From Candidatus Paraluminiphilus aquimaris (GTDB lineage Bacteria > Pseudomonadota > Gammaproteobacteria > Pseudomonadales > Halieaceae): a DNA stretch of 64,000 nt. Location: the NCBI RefSeq assembly GCF_026230195.1, contig NZ_CP036501.1:1860001-1924000 (forward strand). Direction: 5' to 3'. The translations under genes were made by a program, and so were the position numbers. The stretch's first letter is position 1. Each line of letters begins with the position of its first letter. The notes under the pieces were generated by a model, which saw only the letters and a list, made by a program, of their open reading frames with translations, ran no database searches and was not told the origin of the DNA. Below are positions 6,164 to 8,823 of this stretch, piece by piece.

Positions 6164-6273
6164 GGTGGCTCGAACGGTCCCCTCGCAGCGATAGGTAGCG
6201 AACCCCGCCAGGCCCGGAAGGGAGCAACGGTAGTTATCAACTCGGGTGCCGAGGTGTGGCTGTTCGAGTCACC
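6164..6273 (+). ncRNA. ffs: 4.5S RNA, signal recognition particle RNA (small bacterial type)
   Basis: The ends GGTGGCTCGAAC (6164-6175) and GTTCGAGTCACC (6262-6273) pair to form the long terminal stem. The apical domain carries the conserved Ffh-binding sequence CCAGGCCCGGAAGGGAGCA near 6208-6226 with its GGAA tetraloop. The length (about 110 nt) fits the Alu-less gammaproteobacterial SRP RNA. It works with Ffh and FtsY in co-translational membrane targeting. It ends 23 bp before dnaX, a neighbourhood also known from Pseudomonas. Confidence 0.95.
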
Positions 6274-6296: not shown

Positions 6297-8198
6297 ATGA
6301 GTTATCAAGTTCTTGCGCGAAAGTGGAGACCATCCAACTTCTCAGAGATGGTTGGACAAGAGCACGTAGTGAGGGCACTCACGACCGCGTTGGAGTCAGA
6401 GCGCCTGCACCATGCTTACCTCTTTACGGGCACGCGTGGTGTGGGTAAGACGACGGTTGCTCGACTTATCGCAAAAAGCCTCAATTGCGAAGAGGGTGTT
6501 ACTGCAACGCCCTGCGGCGTGTGCGCAAGTTGCGTTGAAATTGCCGAGGGCCGAAGCGTTGACGTGCTGGAAGTTGATGCGGCATCGCGCACTAAGGTTG
6601 AGGACACACGAGAACTACTCGATAACGTGCAGTACGCGCCGACACGATCACGTTTCAAAATCTACCTGATAGACGAAGTGCACATGCTGTCCAACCACAG
6701 CTTTAATGCGCTGCTCAAAACGTTAGAGGAGCCACCCTCCCACGTTAAATTCTTGTTAGCGACAACAGATCCACAAAAACTCCCAGCCACCGTCTTATCG
6801 CGCTGTCTGCAGTTTAATCTCAAGAACATGGTGCCTGGGCAAATAATAGAGCACCTGAAACATGTTTTGAGCGAGGAAAGTGTAAGCTTTGATGACGAAT
6901 CGCTGGCCCTGTTAGCCCGGGGCGCCGAGGGTTCAATGCGCGATGCCTTGTCTTTGACGGATCAAGCTATTGCCCATGGATCCGGGAAGTTGGTCGGTGA
7001 TGACGTCCGTGCAATGTTGGGTACGGTCTCGCGTACCAAAGTGTTGGATTTACTCCAGGCCATTTCAACGAGCGATGTGCAGCAGGCCTTAGCCGTGGTT
7101 GACGACTTGGCAACACATTCGCCAGATTACTCCGGAGCGCTCGACGAGTTGAGTGGAATTCTTCATCAAATTGCGATTGAGCAGGCCGTGCCAGGCAGCT
7201 TAGACGAGGCCTCACCAGAGTTTTCTCGATTACAGGAGCTGGCCAAGCACCTGACAACCGACGACACACAGTTACTTTGGCAAATGGCGGTTGCGAGTAA
7301 GCGCGACCTTGTTCTTGCATCGGATCCACGAAGTGGTCTTGATATGGCGGTTTTACGGATGATTGCCTTCCGTCCGGCGGTCATCATTTCTGATGCTCAC
7401 GAGGCACCCCCAGCAAAAAAGTCTGAACCACCGGTGATGCCGGTGGCGACTCCGGTACCGTCAACTCAGGTTGCACCAACAGCCTTGGGACGCTCTGATT
7501 TACCTACTGATGCCACGGCGTCAGACTCATCTGTCGTGCCGCCATCGAGCGCTTCCGAGCCCGATTCGGCTATCGGCGGTAACCGAGTTAGTGGTGATAA
7601 CGCCGCAGTAGGTGGCACGCATGCTTCGAACCGAAATCACGGTTCGAGGCCATCTGGAATCTCTGAGGAGCCCAACGCTGAGAGCGTATCGCGTGCTGAG
7701 GAAAAACCTGCGGTTGTCGTGAAAGATAATGACGACTCCGATCGCTGTGTCGAGCAACAGGCAAGCCCAATTCCTGAGGGCGCTAAAGCGCCTGACGATG
7801 ACTTGCCAACGCCAGGCTCTTGGCCCGACTTCTTTAACGGCTTGGACCTCAAGGGCGTGATACACAACGTTGCGTCGCATTTCGAGCTCATTAAGACCTA
7901 CGACCGAACGCTTTGCTTTGCCATCGCTCAAGATAATGCAACCTTGTATAACGAGCGACATCAGCGAGGCTTGGCGTCTGCCATGGAAGAAATGCTCGAA
8001 GATGCGGTTGAGGTGCAAGTGTCAATTGCAGCGACGAGCGACAATACACCGGCGAGGCATCGTGAAATTCTAGAGCAGCAGCGTCTGCAGGCCGCTCAGA
8101 CAGCGCTGGAGGAAGACGATTGTTTGTCGGCACTACTCGTTGATTTTGATGCCGTCGTGATACCTAATTCGGTTAAGCCGCCGCTGACAGAGCTATGA
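6297..8198 (+). CDS. dnaX: DNA polymerase III subunits tau/gamma
   Basis: The full-length tau product has 633 residues. It opens with [15 protein letters not shown], the invariant DnaX start, which is why 6297 is chosen over an in-frame upstream codon lying inside the 4.5S RNA. Walker A is GTRGVGKTT, a C4 zinc module (CNCEE..CGVCASC) follows, and the clamp-loader core runs to about residue 365. A low-complexity acidic linker (about 370-510) and a tau-specific C-terminal domain (about 515-633) follow. The protein loads the beta clamp and organises the replisome. A complete minus-one frameshift signal at codons 373-375 should also yield a 376-residue gamma form. recR follows after 19 bp. Confidence 0.97.
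7401..7446 (+). promoter_or_regulatory. programmed -1 ribosomal frameshift signal in dnaX
   Basis: All three E. coli-type elements are present: an SD-like GAGG at 7401-7404, ten bases before the slippery heptamer A AAA AAG (7415-7421, read in frame as GCA AAA AAG); then a six-base spacer and a perfect 7-bp hairpin CCACCGG/CCGGTGG (7428-7434 with 7440-7446, loop TGATG). A slip to the minus-one frame adds one Val codon (GTC) and then meets TGA at 7424-7426, giving gamma. Confidence 0.9.
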
Positions 8199-8217
8199 TG
8201 CAAGGAGCGATGTCTCA

Positions 8218-8823
8218 ATGAAAATGAGTCCCGCAATTCAGGATTTAATCGATGCTTTACGTCATCTCCCTGGCGTGGGCCCCAAATCTGCGCAGCGTAT
8301 GACGCTCCACTTATTGGAAAGAGATCGAGAGGCAGCCGAGTCGTTGGGCGAGGCTTTGTTGGCCGCGCTTTCGCGCGTCCAGCAATGCCAGCGATGCCGG
8401 AACTTTACCGAGCTCACCATTTGTGAGATCTGCGGTGATCCCAAGCGGGACGATTCACTCCTGTGCGTTGTTGAGACACCGGCCGATGTTCTGGCGATTG
8501 AGCACACCGGAAGTTACCGCGGGCTTTATTTCGTTCTTATGGGGCATTTATCACCCCTCGATGGTATTGGCCCAAAGGAGCTAGGTTTGGACAGCTTAGA
8601 GGTTCTGCTCGAGCAAGAGACAATAAGCGAGGTTATTTTGGCAACGAATCCAACGGTCGAGGGTGAGGCCACCGGGCATTACATTGCTGAAATGGCGAAT
8701 CGCAATAAAATCCTTGTGAGCCGGATTGCCCACGGTGTTCCCCTGGGTGGCGAACTCGAATATATCGACGCAACGACACTTGCTCATGCATTGGGCGGCA
8801 GAAAAGTGGTGAGCCCAGAATGA
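8218..8823 (+). CDS. recR: recombination mediator RecR
   Basis: The 201-residue protein has the N-terminal HhH region ([15 protein letters not shown]), a C4 zinc finger ([18 protein letters not shown]) and a Toprim domain ([15 protein letters not shown] to about residue 170). With RecF/RecO it loads RecA on SSB-coated gapped DNA. An AAGGAG ribosome site lies before the start. The usual ybaB/ebfC gene between dnaX and recR is missing here. The stop overlaps the next start (ATGA). Confidence 0.96.

Follow-up and report, generated by a model that had tools for sequence, protein, structure and literature searches.

The window, by which we mean the whole stretch of 64,000 nucleotides analysed from Candidatus Paraluminiphilus aquimaris, belongs to a genome of 2.72 Mb in one contig and carries on its forward strand a dnaX gene (6297..8198), which opens with an ATG at 6297 and whose codons begin at positions divisible by 3. 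Translation of the zero frame gives tau, a product of 633 aa, in which Pfam places the clamp-loader ATPase at residues 20-178, the lid at 182-230, domain III at 235-357 and tau domain V (alpha-binding) at 508-622. Residues 1-375 of this protein are identical in the Halieaceae MAG MED611. A small SRP RNA gene (RF00169, 71.6 bits) lies on the same strand at 6172-6268 and ends 28 nt 5' of the dnaX start codon. The gene ybaB/ebfC, which stands between dnaX and recR in E. coli, is absent at 8198-8218, and its family PF02575 gave no match in the window's 98.7%-complete genome. PF02575 was found in only 7 of 37 genomes of the same genus, many of them incomplete, versus 20 of 21 genomes from other families of the order, which suggests that ybaB/ebfC was lost within the genus.

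Just 3' of the part of dnaX that codes for clamp-loader domain III, the positions 7401-7446 (+) hold a set of elements resembling the programmed -1 frameshift signal of E. coli. The slippery heptamer A_AAA_AAG (7415..7421) is in frame, its codons AAA (7416-7418) and AAG (7419-7421) encoding K374 and K375, and a Shine-Dalgarno-like GAGG (7401..7404), the putative 5' stimulator, stands 10 nt 5' of it with an anti-SD pairing energy of -5.9 kcal/mol. After a short spacer (7422-7427) comes the putative 3' stimulator, the stem-loop CCACCGG-TGATG-CCGGTGG (7428..7446), whose arms (7428-7434 and 7440-7446) form seven perfect base pairs around a 5-nt loop (7435-7439); RNAfold and conservation both support it, and on the window RNAfold forms this stem and lengthens it to 8 bp by a U-G pair. 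The -1 frame reads GTC (7421-7423) and then the stop TGA (7424-7426), thus ending after one codon (7421..7426), and past the cassette the zero frame continues into the tau domains. The preliminary description had claimed a complete cassette of GAGG, heptamer, short spacer and 7-bp hairpin at this place, spaced close to the arrangement in E. coli, with a shifted frame that stops after one codon, and direct reading and translation agreed with it exactly, coordinates included. The spacing is indeed much as in E. coli K-12, where 9 nt separate the end of the best SD 7-mer from the heptamer (8 nt in the window) and the stem starts 5 nt after the heptamer (6 nt in the window).

The predicted gamma (6297..7426, +) would have 376 aa, made up of 375 zero-frame codons to 7421 followed by GTC (V) in the -1 frame and TGA. 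Frameshifting at residue 375 had been proposed from the outset; the position and the K-K-V C-terminus of that proposal are right, and the production of gamma itself is a prediction. Residues 1-365 of the window's DnaX align with residues 1-366 of 1jr3_A, the gamma chain of E. coli (373 residues), which puts the shift point directly 3' of domain III and would leave the predicted gamma without nearly all of the linker.

Conservation was examined in 37 genomes of the genus, including the window's own and many relatives that are MAGs; dnaX was not obtained from seven of them (G003, G013, G015, G021, G023, G027 and G029). Conservation of heptamer and hairpin in close relatives was what the preliminary description had staked its reading on, and heptamer, stem and -1 stop are kept in all 29 same-genus genomes with an intact frame. 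These genomes provided 30 loci (27 loci, those of G033 and G035, and L297, a second copy in G032), and in a thirtieth genome, G011, whose dnaX frame is interrupted, the heptamer, the following TGA and the stem are kept as DNA. The heptamer lies in frame at residues 374-392, and in each of the 30 loci exactly one -1 codon precedes the stop, which is TGA in 28 and TAG in two. The stem takes the form CC[A/G]CCGG-N5-CCGGTGG, with all seven pairs standard in 30 of 30 loci and the third pair A-U in 25 and G-U in five; the stem is nearly constant in the genus, and for that reason none of the seven pairs shows a two-sided compensatory change there. Minimum-energy folding of the 30 nt 3' of the heptamer recovers the stem in 30 of 30 loci, and folding of 60 nt downstream in 27 of 30 (absent in L003, L012 and L027). 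Compared with control positions in the same linker, the stem ranked in the top 5% in all 24 same-genus rows tested, 4 of the 28 same-genus rows and one other having too few control positions. This conservation is seen among proteins whose N-terminal DnaX identity to the window's falls to about 67% and whose linkers vary in length and sequence. The two dnaX copies of G032 (L297 at G032:C27:45900-48300, and L026) both carry the cassette; this MAG has 3% contamination, and the copies may perhaps stem from two organisms.

Codon usage points to selection at the RNA level. Alignment of 27 same-genus sequences gave 167 columns in which the residue is invariant and could be encoded by more than one codon, and only five of them use one codon in all 27 sequences; all five lie in the cassette, namely the heptamer's AAA and AAG, and CCG, CCG and GTG of the stem. 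In each of the other seven invariant Lys columns both AAA and AAG are found. Because A_AAA_AAG served as the anchor of the alignment, the two Lys columns of the heptamer are fixed partly by construction; no fetched same-genus locus is without an A_AAA_AAG. Setting the Lys columns aside, three of four cassette columns are fixed versus none of 161 others, a result with a chance of about 5e-6 if columns are exchangeable, and the fourth is CCA or CCG, with the stem pair kept either way.

This pattern bears on the possibility that the linker holds a conserved peptide motif, KK-x-x-PP-x-x-PV, of which the RNA features would be by-products, only tau being made. All 27 same-genus proteins have the KK, PP and PV residues, as such a motif would require, yet a peptide motif would not account for single-codon columns that are confined, among the 167, to the cassette. 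Nor would it account for an SD-like element that is retained over different peptides and in different registers, or for a -1 stop kept as TGA or TAG while the zero-frame residues over it are E, D or R in different loci, and we consider this explanation very unlikely. The codon, stem and stop conservation argues instead that the elements of a frameshift cassette are themselves the object of selection.

The Shine-Dalgarno-like element behaves in the same-genus loci as an internal stimulator would be expected to. Pairing peaks 7-10 nt 5' of the heptamer, with a mean best energy of -7.1 kcal/mol versus -2.0 kcal/mol at control positions (29 loci), and reaches -4 kcal/mol or lower in 29 of 29 loci versus 17% of controls. 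The 16S tail in the window's genome, GGATCACCTCCTTA, holds a canonical anti-SD that matches the internal SD. Among 39 tRNA places found by Rfam in the genome there is one tRNA-Lys, with anticodon UUU, and the single place lacking an ARAGORN call has anticodon GUC in the Rfam alignment. A sole tRNA-Lys that pairs weakly to AAG is given as a condition for slippage in E. coli in an excerpt of PMC5009743.

We consider it highly probable that dnaX of the window carries a programmed -1 frameshift cassette of the E. coli type that yields the 376-aa gamma. A ribosome on A_AAA_AAG would have two tRNA-Lys(UUU) in its P and A sites and would be held there by GAGG, paired with the anti-SD of 16S rRNA, and by the GC-rich stem downstream, which would resist unwinding. 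Some ribosomes would then slip back by one base, the tRNAs moving from AAA AAG to AAA AAA, decode GTC and terminate at TGA, which would free a gamma of 376 residues with the ATPase, lid and collar domains and none of the C-terminal tau domains; unshifted ribosomes would make tau (633 aa). The slippage, its efficiency, the stability of gamma and its entry into clamp loaders are what we infer from the DNA. That the cassette is a real signal is very probable because close relatives keep it.

The window has 21 copies of AAAAAAG on its two strands together (12.1 expected), so the heptamer alone is not rare, and AAAAAAGNNTGA, with 16 occurrences in the genome versus two for a reversed control pattern, is likewise common as a part alone; only the dnaX site among these 16 joins a long open zero frame, an SD of -5 kcal/mol or lower and a stem of at least 7 bp. 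The 61-nt stretch folds no better than expected from shuffled sequences (z = -0.67; 46 of 200 shuffles fold as well), and an energy search on the window favoured a longer alternative hairpin over the 7-bp stem. The cassette stands well above chance because it is conserved in relatives. Rfam at gathering scores reported no frameshift element in the window; in e-value mode RF00382 aligned at full length in the right place (7396-7451) with 15.6 bits, below its gathering score of 35, and a model that falls below threshold on this variant can overlook such sites. A second in-frame A_AAA_AAG, followed by a -1 stop one codon later and accompanied by a strong SD-like stretch, was seen in the genome at L305 (G000:C1:1095811-1095822, -). 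Its stem is poor and it lies at about codon 40 of an ORF that we take, from reading its translation, to be carbamoyltransferase-like; this site is probably due to chance.

Outside the genus, we defined a cassette as an in-frame A6G with a run of 6-7, an SD of -4 kcal/mol or lower and a -1 stop within 10 codons, a definition of our own that partly sets the run lengths and stop distances found there. By this definition the cassette is present in 28 of 28 same-genus rows, in 8 of the 21 further families sampled from the order (9 of the 21 if no SD is required) and in 3 of 124 families of other orders, or 3 of 119 readable ones, five being unreadable. Among named relatives it was found in 59 of 70 readable loci (61 of 70 without the SD demand; three more were unreadable), the 80 named loci being the best matches to the window and hence biased to close relatives. 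The order and family labels of the sampled genomes are those we assume from the named relatives and from standard classification. The cassette lies at residues 373-537 in the order and named sets, and one lies at residue 583 in another order.

On a DnaX tree of 247 rows, in which many forks are weak and near-copies are included, the distribution of the cassette needs 19 changes versus 76 with shuffled labels. Left out of the tree counts were six named loci on the same contigs as same-genus loci, and L032 (nearly identical to the window), L188, L296 and L297; eight loci whose frame runs off the contig before residue 500 stand in the tree without a state, G038 (partial) is outside the locus set, and L187 ends at residue 414. 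In the tree of named relatives, three Haliea-type loci without a cassette (L070, L095 and L111) group inside the cassette-bearing Halieaceae, which suggests that the cassette was lost once in the Haliea clade. L070, from Haliea sp. MAG_44, has G_AAA_AAG without the -1 stop and sits in this signal-free clade, and its G_AAA_AAG is perhaps the remnant of a decayed cassette.

SD pairing is stronger outside the genus than within it (mean -8.5 versus -7.0 kcal/mol). For the stem the picture outside the genus is mixed, and it is often weak: 18 of 70 non-genus rows, E. coli and L035 (84% identity to the window) being among the 70, fall in the top 5% of same-linker controls (3.5 expected by chance), and 25 of the 70 have a stem worse than half of the controls. 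By this measure, which scores perfect stems, even E. coli stands only at 19%. A -1 stop after exactly one codon was found in 46 of 70 cassettes (E. coli among them, L035 here being counted with the genus) versus 6.5% of control positions, a comparison in which the cassettes were pre-filtered to at most 10 codons and the controls were unfiltered. A +1 stop within five codons occurs at control level (11 of 69 versus 19% of controls). A search of 369 genomes of the class with E. coli DnaX as query (E <= 1e-137) gave the cassette in none of the 30 best loci, some of which belong to genomes already in the class sample; one of the 30 has an A6G that lacks both an SD and a nearby -1 stop, and another a frame that ends at the contig edge at residue 377. 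The best match shares 68% identity with E. coli, which suggests that close relatives of the enterics are absent from these 369 genomes.

This distribution also bears on transcriptional slippage, a second route to gamma known from Thermus, in which RNA polymerase would add or lose A residues within the run and ordinary translation would end at stops close by in both other frames. In its favour are the richness of the site in A, the nine A used by Thermus dnaX (PMC1088944, excerpt) and a +1 stop that follows after four codons in the window and in other same-genus loci, 11 of 30 in all (range in the genus 4 to 139). In other orders, 19 of 119 readable families have a dnaX linker with a run of at least nine A or T. 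Yet the run at the site is six A long in the window and in all 30 same-genus loci, short of the about nine or more of the Thermus type, and the excerpted text of PMC1088944 has avoidance of runs evident at nine in many genomes. Moreover, -1 stops are enriched outside the genus and +1 stops are not, conserved SD and stem would have no role in slippage by the polymerase, and runs of at least nine are distributed on the tree no differently from chance, needing 23 changes versus a mean of 23.2 after shuffling. A six-A run accompanied by SD and stem in all 30 loci argues for ribosomal frameshifting and against transcriptional slippage, which we rejected as highly improbable on the length of the run, the bias to -1 stops and the tree scatter of long runs. 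Runs of at least nine A or T were also seen in the dnaX linker of 3 of 21 families of the order, and loci with long A/T runs (L182, L177, L187, L121, L140, L191 and others) are candidates for Thermus-like slippage of their own.

Another RNA function of the stem and codons, such as a pause for the folding of domain III or an RNA processing site with little or no frameshifting, would fit the place of the stem just behind domain III and an excerpted account of stem-loops impeding ribosomes (PMC7282821), but it leaves unexplained the invariance of A_AAA_AAG, the conserved -1 stop and the joint absence of full heptamer and -1 stop in L070, and we give it hardly any credence.

The closest known system is the -1 frameshift of E. 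coli dnaX, with which the window's site shares the gene, A_AAA_AAG, an SD about 10 nt upstream, a stem 5-6 nt downstream and a -1 stop after one codon. The two differ in the shift codon (375 in the window, 430 in E. coli), and hence in the length that gamma would have (376 versus 431 aa), in the SD and stem sequences, and in the stem, which is a perfect 7 bp in the window, whereas for E. coli a functionally relevant stem of 11 bp is described, along with a frameshifting efficiency of 50% (PMC5009743, excerpt). Thermus thermophilus likewise obtains tau and a shorter gamma out of one dnaX gene, but excerpts of PMC5009743 and PMC1088944 describe nine A with nearby stops in both other frames, in contrast to six A with SD and stem in the window. 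Caulobacter crescentus also needs a shorter DnaX form beside tau; its gamma, unlike the frameshift product proposed here, is a cleavage product of tau made by proteolysis, according to the same excerpt of PMC5009743. That the cassette lies outside the enterics, as first pointed out, holds for the window and is not new per se, since the dnaX logo described in excerpted text of PMC3711429 was drawn from nine genera, Vibrio and Neisseria among them. A 2012 review reports, in its excerpted text, similar sequences in all enterobacteria and most other bacteria without them (PMC3290774). A search of one open-access library for Halieaceae together with dnaX found no paper. P. aeruginosa belongs to the same order as the window. 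Its dnaX is reported to have given only tau in recombinant E. coli, in an excerpt of PMC3290774, which counts against the frameshift reading; among the sampled genomes no dnaX of P. aeruginosa was recognised.

The mechanism proposed is a known one in a new group, and its distribution appears wider and more mobile than the literature, as far as the excerpts go, suggests. We somewhat favour the view, against the published one, that a -1 frameshift gamma is widespread in marine bacteria around Halieaceae, Cellvibrio, Microbulbifer and Neptuniibacter, all of which we take to belong to the order Pseudomonadales. On this view the cassette would wander along the tau linker (residues 373-537 in the order), change its hairpin and be lost in at least one clade (Haliea), and gamma in the window's lineage would come close to the minimal clamp-loader subunit of the E. 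coli crystal structures. The role of gamma as against tau is a long-standing question, and a marine order in which sister lineages keep or lack the cassette would offer a natural experiment on it. The same order would also supply, by the dozen, naturally occurring versions of a model frameshift signal that differ in stem strength, SD strength and position.
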